Assembly: GCA_025054775.1 (NCBI GenBank)
Contig: JANWZA010000047.1
Location: 62,001 to 126,000, forward strand
Length of the DNA: 64,000 nt
DNA from: Microscillaceae bacterium
Lineage (GTDB): Bacteria; Bacteroidota; Bacteroidia; Cytophagales; Microscillaceae
Direction: 5' to 3'
Shown here: piece by piece, positions 13,355 through 49,026 of the stretch
Layout: the number at the start of each line of letters is the position of its first letter
Position numbering within the stretch: position 1 is the first letter of the stretch
Program-made: the position numbers and the translations under genes
The notes under the pieces: generated by a model
What the model was told of the DNA's origin: nothing
What the model saw: the letters and a program-made list of their open reading frames with translations, nothing else
Database searches by the model: none

Positions 13355-14320
13355 TTAATTGTTTTGTATTCTTTTATTTCTGATTATTATTCTGAAATAT
13401 GAGCATTTTCCATTTATTGATAAATCTTTTCCGTCATTTCCTTTCCTGAATTTAATTATTTCAAATTGGTCTGGATTGAACTTGTGTAAAAAAGTTATAG
13501 GCACACCCATATATCCGTCATAGTCCATAGGTATATCTTCCGTTTTATCAACGTTTATGCCGTCATAATTATCATATTTTGGGTATTTGCTTTCATTACC
13601 GAAATATTTTTTCGTAAGTTGTATATCCTCATGTCTTTTGGGGTAGTCTAAATTTGTCAGCCAAAGGCAATTATTTGGTGATACTATTCTATTTCCAGAA
13701 CTATCTATTCGTGCTTCTGTTCCATAAAGTTCATAGTGTTCGGGTACAATAAATCCTGAAATACCTCTTCCAAGATTTACACCTAACCAAACTTTATTTT
13801 CTTTAATCAGTTTGAAAATTTCTTTGTATGTTATAGCGTTTATATTACCTATAATCAAAAACTTTTTGTCATATCTCACTAATTGCTCAACATATTCTCT
13901 GAATAACGAAAATGGGGGATTAGTAACCACAATATCAGACTGCTTCAATAGTTCAATACTTTCAGCACTACGAAAATCTCCATCACCCTTAAACTCTTTT
14001 ATTTCAAGCGGCATGTTTGGTTCAGTACATTCTACAAAAAAACCTTTTTTTGTATTGTTGGCGTTAAACAAATTTATTTCTTGTTTTTGGTAACAGGCAG
14101 TTATTATTTTTTTTAAACCTAAGTCATTAAAATTTGAAGCAAAATACTTGAAAAAGTTGCTATTTCTTGGATCATCACAGTTACAATAAACTACTTTGCC
14201 CTTAAAGTGACTTTTGTAATGCTGCAATTCATTTTCTATGTCGCAAAGTTGTGTATAGAACTCATCACTTTTTAACTTCTTTGCATTTTGTAATAATTTA
14301 TTTGTTGCGTTCCTTGCCAT
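13355..14320 (-). CDS. EcoRI-type adenine-specific DNA methyltransferase
   Basis: The modification enzyme of a Type II system, methylating adenine within the recognition site using S-adenosylmethionine. The 321 residues match the M.EcoRI family in length and layout. An N-terminal helix region contains KKLKSDEFYTQL. VVYCNCDDPRNSNFFKYF serves as the motif I-like region, NPPF (residues 134-137) is the catalytic motif IV, and long PNNCLWLTNLDYPKRH and GYMGVPITFLHKFNPDQF blocks follow. It begins six bases after the stop of the nuclease gene, so both are probably cotranscribed and translationally linked. Recognition of GAATTC is inferred from the partner nuclease. Acquisition by transfer is likely because this system is best known from enterobacterial plasmids. 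Confidence 0.95.
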   Translation of the reverse strand: MARNATNKLLQNAKKLKSDEFYTQLCDIENELQHYKSHFKGKVVYCNCDDPRNSNFFKYFASNFNDLGLKKIITACYQKQEINLFNANNTKKGFFVECTEPNMPLEIKEFKGDGDFRSAESIELLKQSDIVVTNPPFSLFREYVEQLVRYDKKFLIIGNINAITYKEIFKLIKENKVWLGVNLGRGISGFIVPEHYELYGTEARIDSSGNRIVSPNNCLWLTNLDYPKRHEDIQLTKKYFGNESKYPKYDNYDGINVDKTEDIPMDYDGYMGVPITFLHKFNPDQFEIIKFRKGNDGKDLSINGKCSYFRIIIRNKRIQNN

Positions 14321-14326
14321 ATCGCT

Positions 14327-15166
14327 TCACTTTTTGGTTATCTGATTGAACAAATCACTACCCAAAACTTTAAGAGAAGTTCGTGCAATTTCCATCATAA
14401 TGTCAAACATTTCCTTGCTGTTCCACTTCTCTCCTTTTCCTTGCGTGTAAATAGAAGTTGCTTGAAGCATAATCGTTTTGTCTTTGTGCTTCACAAATTT
14501 ATTCACACAAAGATTAGTGTTGATTGGCATTCCATAATTTGCAGAAGTTAGTCGGTCTAATCTATTCAACATACCCGAGTTGTATTCAAGCATTACCATT
14601 CTTCCATCAGGTCTTTCAATCGCAATCGTTTCTGTTAAAAAGTTAGAGCCTTCTAAAAACAAAACATAAGGAAAATGCGATTCAGCAAGCATAAAGTTAG
14701 CAATTTCTGATATGTTTTTATGCGACCTTTCTATTGCATTCCCCGCAGCCATTAAATCTTGATTATTGTCTTTACCAACTAAAATGCCTTTTTTGATATT
14801 CTCAATATCTTTTCCCTGATGTTTTGCTTCTGAAACTAAAATAACCCTCCAATTATCATTATCGTCTTTTACTTCAATGATTCCGCCATCGGGTATAATG
14901 CTTGAATTTGGGACAAAAAGAGTTTGCCCTAACTCAGGGTCTATTTTTTTCAATGCTTCATTAATCTCTTCTTTCCGAATACTCGTTCTATAACGAAAAG
15001 TCAGTTGTGGATATTCCTCTTCAAGTTGTGCAACAACAAGTTTTGATATTTCCCTAACAGTTAAGTCGTGTAATTTTGCTTTATCTCCGAATAACTTACT
15101 ACTCCCTGCGATTTTTTGTGTTGGTTTGTTAATCTTGTTGATTGATTTGTTTGATTCTTTTGCCAT
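14327..15166 (-). CDS. EcoRI-like Type II restriction endonuclease
   Basis: Cuts unmodified DNA, predicted at GAATTC. The 279 residues align along their length with my memory of R.EcoRI (277 residues), with long identical stretches such as EINEALKKIDP, KHQGKD, DLMAAGNAIERSHKNISEIA and SHFPYVLFLEGSNFLTE. Active-site residues Asp93, Glu113 and Lys115 sit where EcoRI has Asp91, Glu111 and Lys113. The recognition segment AGNAIERSH, including the Asn, Glu and Arg that contact the bases, is intact. The N-terminal 25 residues differ. The nuclease gene precedes the methyltransferase gene, as in EcoRI. No frame damage is visible, so an active isoschizomer is expected. Confidence 0.97.
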   Translation of the reverse strand: MAKESNKSINKINKPTQKIAGSSKLFGDKAKLHDLTVREISKLVVAQLEEEYPQLTFRYRTSIRKEEINEALKKIDPELGQTLFVPNSSIIPDGGIIEVKDDNDNWRVILVSEAKHQGKDIENIKKGILVGKDNNQDLMAAGNAIERSHKNISEIANFMLAESHFPYVLFLEGSNFLTETIAIERPDGRMVMLEYNSGMLNRLDRLTSANYGMPINTNLCVNKFVKHKDKTIMLQATSIYTQGKGEKWNSKEMFDIMMEIARTSLKVLGSDLFNQITKK

Positions 15167-42796: not shown

Positions 42797-45700
42797 CTAT
42801 GCTGTATTAGTTGCTAATTTTTTGTCAGTAGCGGGGGTAGTGGGTGTATTGCGTTTGAGGTCTAGAATAAGTGGGGCTGCTACAAAAATAGATGAGTATG
42901 TTCCAAAAATGATACCTACAAGCAACGAGAATGAGAACCCTCGCAAAGTTTCACCTGCAAAAAAGAGCAATACAATCACCACCAAAATTGTGGTAGTACC
43001 TGTTACGATGGTTCTACTCAAAGTATCGTTAATAGCAGAATTGAGTTGTTTTGCAAAGTCGGCTTTTTCTATATCAGGGGAAAACTCACGAATACGGTCG
43101 AATACCACCACGGTATCGTTGATAGAATAACCCACTACGGTGAGCAAGGCGGCAATATATACTTGGTCAATTTCTAAATTTAGCCCCAGCAAACTTGCCA
43201 CACCTGTTAAAGCTAACGTAATTAGTACGTTATGGAAAAGCGAAACTGCCGCACCTACGCCATATTTCCAGCTACGGAAGCGAACATAGATGTAAGCAAA
43301 AAGCATTACCAACGATAGCACCACAGCCCATTGTGCTGTTGCACGAATATCATCAGCAATACTTGCTCCTACCTTAGACGAACTAATTACTTCAGGATTA
43401 AGGTTTTTGTATTTTTCCAAACCTGCAAATACAATTTGCTCTACTTTTTTGCCTGCCTCTTCTGACTCGTCTTCAATCAAATAGCTGGTCGTAATCTTTA
43501 CTTGGTTGTTCGCTCCATAAGTTTTTACCTCGGTACCTGTTTTTACATTGTTTTTGGCGAAGGCTTCTACAATTTGCCTACGAACTTCGTTCACAGGAAT
43601 AGCTTGTTCAAATTTTACAATATAAGAGCGTCCACCTTTGAAGTCCACTCCCAGCGTTAAGCCTCCTTGTATGAAAATGGTAACAAAACCCAGTACAATA
43701 ATTACCAACGAAATAAGATACGCTTTTTTACGCATACCCACAAAATCAAAGTTCGTTTTCTTAAACTTTACATTTTGCAATAGCGGTGCGAAGCTAATCG
43801 GTTGTTTGTCAGGGTTGCGGGCAATAAATTCAATGATAACGCGGCTCAAAAATACAGCACAAAATACCGAAACTACTATACCTATCATTAGCGTTACGGC
43901 AAAACCTTTTACTAGACCACCTGTACCCAGAAGGTAAAGAATAAGCCCTGTGAGGAAAGTAGTTGCATTGGAGTCAATGATAGCACTCAAAGCTTTTTCA
44001 TATCCCAAATTGATAGCTTCTTTCATACTTTTGCCCAAAGATAATTCTTCTTTTAAGCGTTCATAAATCAATACGTTAGCATCTACTGACATGGCCACTG
44101 AAAGCACGAAACCCGCAATCCCTGAAAGCGTGAGTGAGGCTCCAAATTGTGCTAAAATTCCTATCGTGAAAAAGATATTTACTAAAAGTGCCAAATTGGC
44201 AATACCGCCGCCTTTGGTATAGTAGAAAAACATAAAACTAAACACTATTAGCACACCAATAAGCGAAGAGATAAGTCCTTGCGAAATAGCCTCTTTCCCC
44301 AAAGAAGGTCCCACAATTGCCTCCTCTACAATGCGCGTAGGGGCAGGCAGTTTTCCTGCTTTGAGTACGTTTGCTAAGTCATCAGCCTCTTCTATCGTAA
44401 AGTTACCTGAAATTGACGAACTTCCATTGGGTATTTCACTACGCACATAAGGAGCAGAGTAGACATTATCGTCAAGTACAATTGCAATACGACGGTTGAT
44501 GTTATCTGCTGTAATTTTTCGCCACTTGCGCGCTCCTACCCCATTCATTTGCATCAATACCTCAGGTCTGCCATTGTCATCAAAATCTCTTCGCGCATCA
44601 GTAATTACATCTCCTTCCAAAAGGGCCTTCCCATTGATACCTTTTTTCACTGCAAAGAGAGTCATTTTGCCCTGCTCGTCAGGTTTTACACTCCACAAAA
44701 AGCGACAATTGCTTGGAAACATCGTCCGCACTTCTGCACGTGAAAGCAATTCATTCACACGACTTGTGTCTTTAATAGCTACTGCCAAGCCCTCAGGAGA
44801 ATAGCTGAACAAACGATTAAACAACGGACTTTGCGTTTCTTTTTTTGCCGTATCTTTTTTAGTTTCTTTCTTTTCAGCTACCTTTTTGGCAGTGTCCTTA
44901 TCTTTGGCTTCTTTTTTTGTTGTATCTTTTTTGCCCTCATCGGTTTTAGCTACCAAGTCCGTATTTTCTTCGGTTTTTTGCGTAGTATCTTTTTTTGCTT
45001 CGTCTTGGGTGTCTGTTTTGGCAATCAATTCACTGCCTGCATCTTGTTTTTTATCGTCTTTTTTCTGCTCTTTGCCTTTTTCTTGTTGGTCTATTTTGTT
45101 CAAATATTTGCTAAATTGGTCTAAACTACTTCCCAATTCGTTCATTTCCCACACCTCCAAAAACTCTAATTTCGCTGAACCTGACAGAAGTTTTCGCACC
45201 CGTTCAGGATTGTCTGCCCCAGGAAGTTCTACCAAAATACGGTTCGTGTTAGGTACTTTTTGTACGTTGGCATTTGCCACGCCAAACTTATCCACACGAG
45301 TACGAATAATGTTAAAAGAGCGGTCGAAGGCTCCTGCCACCTCGCTTTCAATCATTTTCATAATTTCGGCATTAGTAGAGTTGAGGCTCACTTTGCCGCG
45401 ATTTGCCGTATTGGTAAAAATAGGGGCTAATTTGCCACCTTTTGTAATCTCCTCATAAGCCTTTAAGAACAAGCGAGTAAAGGGCTGACTACTATTTTTT
45501 TGCATTTCACGCGCTTGGGCAAGGGCTTTATTAAAGTTCGCATCAGGGCTGTTGCCTGCAAGGGCTTTAATAATTTCCACAGGCGAAACTTCCAACATTA
45601 CGTGCATACCCCCTTGCAAATCCAACCCGAGAGCTAATTCTTTTTCTTTTACCTCTTTGTAAGTAAAAGAAGTAATTCCTAAAAAGTTATATACAGGTTC

Positions 45701-45880
45701 GTTCCACAATGAGTCCAAATATTTTTGGCGTTTCTTAAAATCTACATTTCCTTTGGCATCAGTGGCGAAGGCAGTCGCTTTGTTCTGAATGTTGCGTGCC
45801 ACAAATGTAAACGAAAGGTAATACACACACAGCAAGGCTATGATTACTGTAAGCCAAATAATTGCACTTTTGTTTTTCAT
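42797..45880 (-). CDS. secDF: Fused protein-export membrane protein SecDF
   Basis: The SecD and SecF halves of the Sec translocon accessory complex in one chain of 1027 residues, which uses the proton gradient to complete export of proteins. The SecD half starts with one membrane helix, the ALGLDLQGGMHVMLEV block and the periplasmic P1 domain, then helices with VDANVLIYERLKEEL. The SecF half begins about residue 715 (TNFDFVGMRKKAYLIS) and contains GVDFKGG and SINDTVVVFDRIRE. An insertion of about 90 residues, almost entirely Lys/Asp/Glu/Thr (around 255-350), interrupts the P1 region and is far longer than in typical SecDF. Fusion of SecD and SecF is usual in Bacteroidota. Confidence 0.96.
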   Translation of the reverse strand: MKNKSAIIWLTVIIALLCVYYLSFTFVARNIQNKATAFATDAKGNVDFKKRQKYLDSLWNEPVYNFLGITSFTYKEVKEKELALGLDLQGGMHVMLEVSPVEIIKALAGNSPDANFNKALAQAREMQKNSSQPFTRLFLKAYEEITKGGKLAPIFTNTANRGKVSLNSTNAEIMKMIESEVAGAFDRSFNIIRTRVDKFGVANANVQKVPNTNRILVELPGADNPERVRKLLSGSAKLEFLEVWEMNELGSSLDQFSKYLNKIDQQEKGKEQKKDDKKQDAGSELIAKTDTQDEAKKDTTQKTEENTDLVAKTDEGKKDTTKKEAKDKDTAKKVAEKKETKKDTAKKETQSPLFNRLFSYSPEGLAVAIKDTSRVNELLSRAEVRTMFPSNCRFLWSVKPDEQGKMTLFAVKKGINGKALLEGDVITDARRDFDDNGRPEVLMQMNGVGARKWRKITADNINRRIAIVLDDNVYSAPYVRSEIPNGSSSISGNFTIEEADDLANVLKAGKLPAPTRIVEEAIVGPSLGKEAISQGLISSLIGVLIVFSFMFFYYTKGGGIANLALLVNIFFTIGILAQFGASLTLSGIAGFVLSVAMSVDANVLIYERLKEELSLGKSMKEAINLGYEKALSAIIDSNATTFLTGLILYLLGTGGLVKGFAVTLMIGIVVSVFCAVFLSRVIIEFIARNPDKQPISFAPLLQNVKFKKTNFDFVGMRKKAYLISLVIIVLGFVTIFIQGGLTLGVDFKGGRSYIVKFEQAIPVNEVRRQIVEAFAKNNVKTGTEVKTYGANNQVKITTSYLIEDESEEAGKKVEQIVFAGLEKYKNLNPEVISSSKVGASIADDIRATAQWAVVLSLVMLFAYIYVRFRSWKYGVGAAVSLFHNVLITLALTGVASLLGLNLEIDQVYIAALLTVVGYSINDTVVVFDRIREFSPDIEKADFAKQLNSAINDTLSRTIVTGTTTILVVIVLLFFAGETLRGFSFSLLVGIIFGTYSSIFVAAPLILDLKRNTPTTPATDKKLATNTA

Positions 45881-46761: not shown

Positions 46762-49026
46762 ATGACCGAAGAGAGAGTTACAAAGGAAGCCTTATTTGGG
46801 CAAATGGACTTCAAAACCCTTGCTGAGAATCCTGACTTCAAAGAGGATAGTGTTCGGGAGGTGCTTATTTTGCCGATTTTGCAAAAACTAGGCTACAAGC
46901 CTGAGAATATTGTGCGAAGTAAGACCTTAAAACACCCTTTTCTAACCATAGGTAGCAACCAAAAGCGTGAAATCAAACTCGTTCCTGACTATCTTTTGAA
47001 AGTAGAAGGAAGTTATGCGTGGGTATTAGATGCCAAGTCTCCTAAACAAAAAGTAAATGACAAGCGCCACGTTGAGCAGGTGTATAGCTATGCCTCGCAC
47101 CCTGAAATTCGGAGTATCTATTTTGCCTTGTGTAATGGGATAGAATTTGCACTTTACCGCCGAGAGCAGACCAATACCCCTATTCTGTATTTTTCTTTGG
47201 ATGAGATAGAATACCATTGGGAAAAGTTAAAAATGTTTCTTTCTCCGAGTAGTTTTCAAGCGGGCAAAAGTATTAGCTATGAAAATACAAGTACCCTCAA
47301 ACAAGAAACTTTTGACTATGCTACCCGACCTCTTTTGGAGGAGATTCCTGTAAAGAAACAGGCTGCGAAACGGCACTTTGGCGTGCATGGTTACTTTACC
47401 AAGCAGACGTGGAATGTGGTAGCTGAATATATTAAGAATTTTAGCAAGCCAGGGGACTTGGTGTTAGATCCATTCGGAGGCAGTGGGGTTACGGCAATTG
47501 AGGCAATGATGAACAACCGCAAAGCAATTAGCATAGACCTCAATCCGTTAGCGGTGTTTTTGGTGCAGTCGCTTATTGCTCCTGTAAAAGAGAGCGAACT
47601 TGCCGAAGCCTTCGAGCAGGTGAAAACTCAGTATCAAAAACTTGAACCCAAAACGGAAGTGGAGATACAAAAAGCCCTCAAAAAGTATCCAAAACCTAAA
47701 CCTTTGCCTTTACCCAAAGGGTCAGACGTGCCAACAGTGCGGGAACTGTTTAGCGACAAACAAGTAGCTCAATTAGGTTTGTTGAAATTCTTAATCAAAA
47801 AGCAAAAAAATGAAAATATTAGAAAGTCGCTCATGCTTATGTTCTCAGGAGTAGTTACTCGTATCAACCTTACCTACCATATAAGTAAATCTGTAAAAGC
47901 TAAAACAGGATTTGGAGGTGATGCAGCAGCCTTTCGGTACTATCGTTACCGAATCGCTCCTTATCATACAGAGGTTGATATAATGAAATGTTTTGAACTG
48001 CGGTATAAGAAAGTACTTGCGGCTAAAAAAGAAATAGAGTATTTCATCAACGAACAGACGATTTCGGATATTCAAATTTTGAAAGGTACAGCCACCGATT
48101 TGAAGTTTTTACCACGAGAGAGCGTAGATTATATTTACACAGACCCACCCTACGGCAAAAAAATCCCTTATCTTGACCTCTCAGCTATGTGGAATGCGTG
48201 GTTAGATTTGGACGTAAGCGAAAAAGATTATGAATTAGAGGCCATAGAAGGAGGTTCCCACGAAAAGAGCAAACAGGAGTATAACCAACTTATAGCAAAG
48301 AGCATTCAAGAGATGTATCGAGTGCTCAAATTTGATCGTTGGCTTTCGTTTGTGTTTGCCCACAAAGACCCTGAGTTTTGGCACTTAATCATAGAAACAG
48401 CAGAGAGTTGTGGTTTTGAGTACGTAGGGGCAGTACCCCAAAAGAACGGACAAACCAGCTTCAAGAAACGGCAACACCCTTTTACAGTATTGTCAGGGCA
48501 ATTGATTATCAACTTTCGCAAAGTACGTAATCCGCGTGCTATCATGAAAGCGAATTTAGGGATGGATATTGCCCAAATCGTGATGCAAACTATTGAGGGA
48601 ATTATTGCCAAATATAACGGGGCGAGTTTAGAGCAAATCAATGATGAATTGATTATTAAGGGATTAGAATTAGGTTTTTTAGATTTGCTCAAAAAACAAT
48701 ATTCTGACCTGACCCCTATTTTATTAGATAATTTTGACTACGACGAGAAAACCGAATTATTTACACTTCGTAAGAATGCTCGCTTTAAGACGAATATAGA
48801 TGTCAAATTGCGGATAAAGTATTATCTGATAAGCTACCTGCGGCGTATGGAACGTGCAAATTACTATCCTACTTTTGATGAGATTACGCTTAATATTTTG
48901 CCTTTGCTTAAAAATGGGCTAACTCCCGAGAATCAAACCATTTTAAGTGTTTTGCAAGACATTGCAGAACGCATAGGTCAAGATCGCTGGAAACTTCGCC
49001 AAGAAGGGCAAACAAAATTATTCTAA
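46762..49026 (+). CDS. Single-chain protein with PD-(D/E)xK nuclease-like and adenine/cytosine N-methyltransferase domains
   Basis: A 754-residue protein. Residues about 20-170 look like the HsdR/Type-I-R N-terminal nuclease fold: FKEDSVREVLILPILQKLGY, then Pro75-Asp76 (KLVPDYLLKV) and Asp90-Ala-Lys92 (WVLDAKSPK), fitting PD-(D/E)xK. From about 185 a DNA amino-methyltransferase follows. Asp236-PFGGSG is the SAM loop (motif I), then a roughly 200-residue variable region that may read the target. Asp461-PPYG is the catalytic motif IV, followed by a block with SFVFAHKDPEFWHLIIETAESCGF. The C-terminal 180 residues are helical. The order motif I, variable part, motif IV matches the alpha class. 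It may be a stand-alone restriction-modification enzyme (Type IIG-like) or a regulatory methylase. gatB follows after 23 bases, an unusual operon neighbour. Confidence 0.85.
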   Translation: MTEERVTKEALFGQMDFKTLAENPDFKEDSVREVLILPILQKLGYKPENIVRSKTLKHPFLTIGSNQKREIKLVPDYLLKVEGSYAWVLDAKSPKQKVNDKRHVEQVYSYASHPEIRSIYFALCNGIEFALYRREQTNTPILYFSLDEIEYHWEKLKMFLSPSSFQAGKSISYENTSTLKQETFDYATRPLLEEIPVKKQAAKRHFGVHGYFTKQTWNVVAEYIKNFSKPGDLVLDPFGGSGVTAIEAMMNNRKAISIDLNPLAVFLVQSLIAPVKESELAEAFEQVKTQYQKLEPKTEVEIQKALKKYPKPKPLPLPKGSDVPTVRELFSDKQVAQLGLLKFLIKKQKNENIRKSLMLMFSGVVTRINLTYHISKSVKAKTGFGGDAAAFRYYRYRIAPYHTEVDIMKCFELRYKKVLAAKKEIEYFINEQTISDIQILKGTATDLKFLPRESVDYIYTDPPYGKKIPYLDLSAMWNAWLDLDVSEKDYELEAIEGGSHEKSKQEYNQLIAKSIQEMYRVLKFDRWLSFVFAHKDPEFWHLIIETAESCGFEYVGAVPQKNGQTSFKKRQHPFTVLSGQLIINFRKVRNPRAIMKANLGMDIAQIVMQTIEGIIAKYNGASLEQINDELIIKGLELGFLDLLKKQYSDLTPILLDNFDYDEKTELFTLRKNARFKTNIDVKLRIKYYLISYLRRMERANYYPTFDEITLNILPLLKNGLTPENQTILSVLQDIAERIGQDRWKLRQEGQTKLF

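Follow-up and report, generated by a model that had tools for sequence, protein, structure and literature searches.

A predicted one-polypeptide restriction-modification enzyme with an N-terminal PD-(D/E)xK domain and a hypervariable segment inside its methyltransferase core

Results

The window analysed here, a 64,000-nucleotide stretch of a Microscillaceae bacterium contig, contains at 46762..49026 on the forward (+) strand an intact open reading frame (ORF) with an ATG start that encodes a predicted nuclease-methyltransferase fusion of 754 aa; all features of this gene given below lie on the same strand. Near the gene start there is no exact match to a Bacteroidota-type promoter pattern. 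A first-pass annotation had read the ORF as joining a PD-(D/E)xK nuclease-like domain to an amino-methyltransferase (MTase), and this reading is borne out by motifs that are in place and conserved in relatives. These relatives come from a scan of a species collection, in which the best 80 of 147 were kept (61-79% identity in the best segment); they are the closest ones, and counts made on them say little about distant members of the family.

The nuclease motif P75-D76 (46984..46989) is kept by 78/79 (P) and 79/79 (D) of the readable relatives among the best 80 of 147, and in the same set the first position of D90-A91-K92 (47029..47037) is Asp in 73/79 and Glu in 6/79 while A and K are each found in 79/79. 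The erosion of PD-DxK residues that was looked for in homologues was therefore not seen, D76 and K92 both standing at 79/79. Q106 and Y110 (47077..47091), which we take to form a QxxxY motif, are both present in 80/80 of these best 80 of 147 relatives. In the MTase part, motif I reads DPFGGSG in the sequence (residues 236-242, 47467..47487), with D236, G240 and G242 in 80/80, P237 in 74/80 and F238 in 77/80 of the best 80 of 147, and motif IV reads DPPY (residues 461-464, 48142..48153), with each residue in 80/80 of them. Given this conservation among relatives, the combination of PD, DAK, DPFGGSG and DPPY is, at the level of sequence, more than a chance pattern. The 754-aa protein thus presents a SAM motif, then an insert, then a catalytic motif, and the earlier claim that DPFGGSG and DPPY stand in alpha-class order holds. 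Pfam matches N6_N4_Mtase in two stretches (4.5e-17), and in PADLOC the top hit is PglXI (2e-41), with Type II MTases coming next.

The MTase domain filled both fold searches made with the whole protein, and the N-terminal domain (residues 1-165, 46762..47256) was for this reason folded separately. Modelled alone, it reached a mean pLDDT of 90.6 and, in VIA-align comparisons, matched the HsdR fragment 3h1t (Z 12.5, 135 residues, 4.2 Å), BpuSI 3s1s (Z 11.8, 139 residues, 3.6 Å), DrdV 7lo5 (Z 10.8, 148 residues, 3.9 Å), EcoR124I HsdR 2w00 (Z 9.0, 135 residues, 5.0 Å) and BsaXI 8w2p (Z 8.8, 139 residues, 7.0 Å); because a mitoribosome chain also scored Z 8.8, only values above about 10 carry weight. 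The top Foldseek row was DrdV (E 5.9e-4), the sole row below 0.001. Among the N-domains of 76 relatives, Pfam matched HSDR_N_2 in 37 (best 1.3e-10), HSDR_N in 37, MmeI_N in 3 and BpuSI_N in 1, while the window's own N-domain fell below the HSDR_N cut-off (18.3 and 22 bits vs 25.1). The structure prediction that had been set as a test of the nuclease-like domain thus gave a predicted nuclease fold, and the comparison with the N-domain of a Type I R subunit is supported by the model, which lies nearest to HsdR 3h1t.

Within the full-protein model (pLDDT 84.3), residues 195-590 (47344..48531) form a SAM-dependent MTase fold with a best Z of 17.9 to 6zxy (2.9 Å over 176 residues); the fold matches to this core are generic and RNA MTases, a point against reading the protein as a restriction-modification (R-M) enzyme. 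Modelled strands at 233-236 and 254-259 are followed by a long, mostly helical stretch at 262-425 and then by strands at 437-441 and 455-460, the last ending at DPPY. This strand order places an insert of residues about 277-436 (47590..48069), a predicted target-recognition domain (TRD), between MTase strands 2 and 3. The insert holds one cysteine, C410. The C-terminal region (residues 601-754, 48562..49023) is conserved and mostly helical in the model; a PDB sequence search with it, up to E 1, matched nothing, and an HTH-like role for it is conjectural.

The first-pass annotation had also described a variable region ahead of DPPY and proposed a family survey of it. The region is real, and its hypervariable core spans residues about 331-435 (47752..48066). 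In the pair L034/L035 this segment is 44% identical in amino acids and 56% in bases, and the other five segments are 76-99% identical in amino acids. Because the eight pairs examined and the segment itself were chosen after inspection, the p-values are descriptive and not tests: Fisher p 4.3e-28 for L034/L035, 7.4e-23 for L029/L034 (46% identity in the segment), 9.1e-12 for L026/L038, two copies from one metagenome bin (56%), 2.7e-5 to 2.0e-13 for four further pairs with a weaker excess of differences, and 1.0 for L029/L035, which are 92% identical there and show no excess. An excess was thus found in 7/8 pairs, and the pace of change in the segment differs from pair to pair. In same-genome pairs from five bins, it was less alike than the flanks in 14/14 (0.46-0.69 vs 0.72-0.97), and of the 90 pairs whose flanks reach an identity of 0.80 or more, 24 had a segment identity under 0.60 and a minority showed no drop in the segment. 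Among some close relatives, the survey therefore shows this stretch to be much more variable than the remainder of the protein; other relatives probably share a specificity, as several of these 90 pairs are no less alike in the segment than in the flanks. The L034 segment is foreign to the otherwise agreeing pair L029/L035, and this sequence pattern fits exchange of the segment better than uniformly relaxed constraint. Residues 331-435 are best read as a candidate TRD that is diversifying or being swapped.

The absence of an adjacent specificity or helicase gene, noted at first inspection, extends to the family. When 861 ORFs from 81 loci (the 80 relatives and the window) were clustered, no partner gene recurred; besides the family itself, the only clusters present in at least 4 loci were one in 11 loci, with an ABC-type ATPase-like lead, and one in 5. 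Among the 146 adjacent ORFs, the 116 with a length of 80-700 aa were scanned, and every PADLOC or Pfam family was matched at most 3 times. In total, 82 PADLOC families had a match to one or more of these 116 ORFs; since single neighbours match defence families, some copies sit near other defence genes. In the window, gatB follows the gene on the same strand after 23 bases, a scan of the gap found no terminator-like site, and read-through into gatB is possible on this sequence. The adjacency that had seemed odd at first is thus real as a local arrangement, but a conserved operon with gatB was considered and rejected. Apart from the window, L021 is the sole locus of the 81 with gatB among its ORFs, and there it is not adjacent; in the three related genomes in which both genes were found (G001, G009 and G011), each is on a separate contig. 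Judged by these comparisons, the pairing is incidental.

Elsewhere in the window, 13355-14320 (-) and 14327-15166 (-) form an EcoRI-type R-M pair (EcoRI_methylase 1.3e-132, EcoRI endonuclease 2.5e-149), so that a conventional Type II system is probably present in the host as well, some 32 kb from the gene. The ORF at 42797-45880 (-), of 1027 aa, reads as an apparent fusion of SecD and SecF, an arrangement common in Bacteroidota.

The best 80 of 147 relatives are mostly full length, a few ending at contig ends, and 79 of them could be assigned by record title to 11 phyla. A quick tree of these 80 required 18 changes of phylum label, where the minimum possible is 10 and the shuffled mean 43.6; this scatter is consistent with horizontal spread without proving it, as paralogues, and binning errors in metagenome assemblies, can inflate label changes. 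The family is patchy, with a match at 1e-30 in 12/96 related genomes and 9/296 genomes of the phylum, partial or broken copies included; two genomes, the gene's own among them, are common to both lists. Nine of the 12 matching relatives carry a full-length open copy, G009 and G063 have copies broken by stops, and G079 has the N-domain alone. In the phylum list six of the 9 genomes carry a full-length open copy; in G189 two contigs share the pieces of one copy, G378 is limited to the N-domain, and G380 gives a partial core match.

We considered and set aside a plasmid or phage gene, as no matching record covered 80% of the query (0/85 plasmid, 0/4 phage). A full-length relative is found on three IMG/VR contigs. 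On one of these (L131, 1-5255) it lies near a large serine integrase (phrog_95, 1.8e-89) that follows an apparently truncated gene, comM-like by reading and seemingly interrupted by the integrase; the position of this copy implies that the gene can travel as cargo. Two plasmids carry frames limited to the N-domain (L109 4328-5203 and L110 5998-6921; 44 and 47% identity) and, together with the G079 and G378 copies, these make up a set of open frames, each about 290-340 aa long, whose match is confined to this domain. A split two-gene version of the enzyme was rejected, the standalone HSDR_N plasmid proteins H13 and H14 being without an annotated MTase gene within 6 kb on either side. In L035 (2898-5945) the open frame of the relative extends upstream to about 1016 codons; the start of this extension resembles, by reading, a phage-type DNA-binding domain, and it could reflect a fusion or an artefact of assembly.

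The gene's own genome also encodes a sister methyltransferase, P0002 (L002 1483-3783, contig C55), of 766 aa and 33% identical over query residues 196-747. It is without the N-domain and has about 190 residues beyond the aligned part, an extension kept in four further copies from three related genomes, with IDVIW and FExEEST invariant across the five rows. Pfam and PDB sequence searches gave no identification of this C-terminal domain, which covers about residues 617-766 of P0002; its sequence may hold a D...ExE nuclease site, placed at the opposite end of the protein.

Discussion

We propose that this 754-aa protein is a complete stand-alone R-M enzyme in which one polypeptide marks the cell's own DNA and cuts DNA that is unmodified, a reading that we reach by computation only and consider likely to be right. 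The first-pass annotation had raised a compact one-gene R-M enzyme as a possibility, and the predicted fold, the uneroded catalytic residues, the lack of a partner gene, the variable segment and the patchy occurrence of the family all support it. Counting against it, besides the generic MTase fold matches, are the sub-threshold HSDR_N score of the window's own N-domain, the failure of the C-terminal region to match any PDB sequence, and the stop-broken copies in two of the 12 matching genomes. In our model, the insert of residues 277-436, perhaps together with the C-terminal helical region, would read a specific DNA sequence; the MTase would methylate an exocyclic amino group at that site, most likely adenine N6, given that DPPY presumably points to m6A as a general rule; and the tethered N-terminal PD-(D/E)xK domain would cut DNA at the unmodified site. 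Cutting would probably take place when two enzyme molecules pair transiently on the DNA, as has been reviewed for Type IIG enzymes (PMC3874165). New specificities would come from the exchange or rapid divergence of residues 331-435. As a single chain and a single recognition segment serve both activities, swapping this segment would alter the two at once. In this model, which base is methylated, cleavage, dimerisation and the role in defence are parts that we infer.

Type IIG enzymes (IIC; BpuSI, DrdV, MmeI family) resemble the window protein in having nuclease and amino-MTase in one chain with the nuclease at the N-terminus, and the modelled N-domain is like those of BpuSI and DrdV (Z 11.8 and 10.8). 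Type IIG enzymes are described, however, as gamma-MTases with an N-terminal cleavage domain (PMC3874165) and specificity at the C-terminus (PMC4389544), whereas the recognition segment of the window protein is an internal insert placed ahead of a catalytic motif that reads DPPY. We therefore do not file the protein in the Type IIG lineage, even though it would work alike; it is best read, on the predicted structure, as a Type IIG-like enzyme working on an internal-TRD MTase core that resembles BrxXI and not on a gamma-class core. The order given for alpha MTases in another paper, FxGxG - TRD - DPPY (PMC5867850), is that of the window protein, with DPFGGSG at 236-242, the hypervariable segment at 331-435 and DPPY at 461-464. 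The same paper assigns HVO_A0079, annotated as Type IIG, to the alpha subtype, and this earlier claim concerns a group, RM.Aco12261II/HVO_A0079, that is set apart from the window protein by its description: 1088 aa for HVO_A0079 and 1117-1185 aa, NPPY, and N-terminal regions in which the authors saw no significant similarity within the group (PMC5867850). Relatives of the window protein may be listed under Type IIG in REBASE, and in the open-licence literature searched we recognised no publication naming this architecture. The modelled N-domain is also like that of HsdR of Type I systems (3h1t, Z 12.5; 2w00, Z 9.0), from which the protein differs in having no motor domain in Pfam and no HsdS or other conserved subunit among its neighbours. 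A match to one PHROG with the name DNA helicase (residues 145-262, 1.3e-8) was rejected as a motor region, since it overlaps the end of the N-domain and MTase motif I.

Many bacteria keep orphan MTases, and the protein might likewise be a solitary or regulatory DNA MTase whose nuclease-like domain aids binding or folding without restriction, in line with the finding that no separate nuclease gene recurs alongside. A non-catalytic domain should erode, however, and none of the 79-80 readable relatives among the best 80 of 147 shows a change at D76, K92, Q106 or Y110; moreover, a conserved regulatory mark would not go with a recognition segment that diversifies between close relatives, and we regard a solitary MTase as improbable. 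The PglXI match (2e-41) would instead suit a subunit responsible for modification in a multi-protein system, BREX-like or other, with partners elsewhere in the genome, as would the position of the insert: BrxXI of Type-3 BREX is described with a large insert between strands 2 and 3 and HTH-like C-terminal domains, which recall the insert and helical C-terminal region found here (PMC12839542). The same description gives BrxXI a short N-terminal lead-in only, without a nuclease, and an insert that carries a Zn finger of four cysteines (PMC12839542), whereas the window protein has a nuclease domain, no such finger and no BREX neighbours. As no neighbour recurs and the only PglZ-domain match in the genome lies on another contig, in a gene reading like a PorX response regulator (receiver part by reading), we reject membership of BREX itself and hold a subunit role of this kind to be quite unlikely. 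PD-(D/E)xK domains are also nuclease effectors in BREX and BREX-related systems, according to the same paper (PMC12839542), and a self-destructive anti-phage effector can be imagined in which the MTase part would respond to a state altered by phage and the nuclease would degrade the DNA of both cell and phage; a conserved MTase site together with a diversifying recognition segment fits sequence-specific self-marking better, and we give this explanation the least credence.

Returning to the stand-alone R-M enzyme, we speculate, with slightly less than even confidence, that the protein represents a separate one-protein R-M lineage, in which a BrxXI-like core with an internal exchangeable segment recruited nuclease domains independently, at the N-terminus here and perhaps at the C-terminus in the sister family, and which would thereby have come to Type IIG-like function by a path of its own, not through the gamma-class ancestor held in common with Type I. 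If active, the protein would be a stand-alone enzyme of 754 aa with its specificity confined to some 100 internal residues, a stretch in which near-identical proteins already differ in nature, making the rules that connect motif to sequence testable through the methylomes of natural variants. Such an enzyme would connect methyltransferases of the BREX type with classical restriction and could explain methylation motifs that are still unassigned in Bacteroidota, Cyanobacteriota and other phyla.
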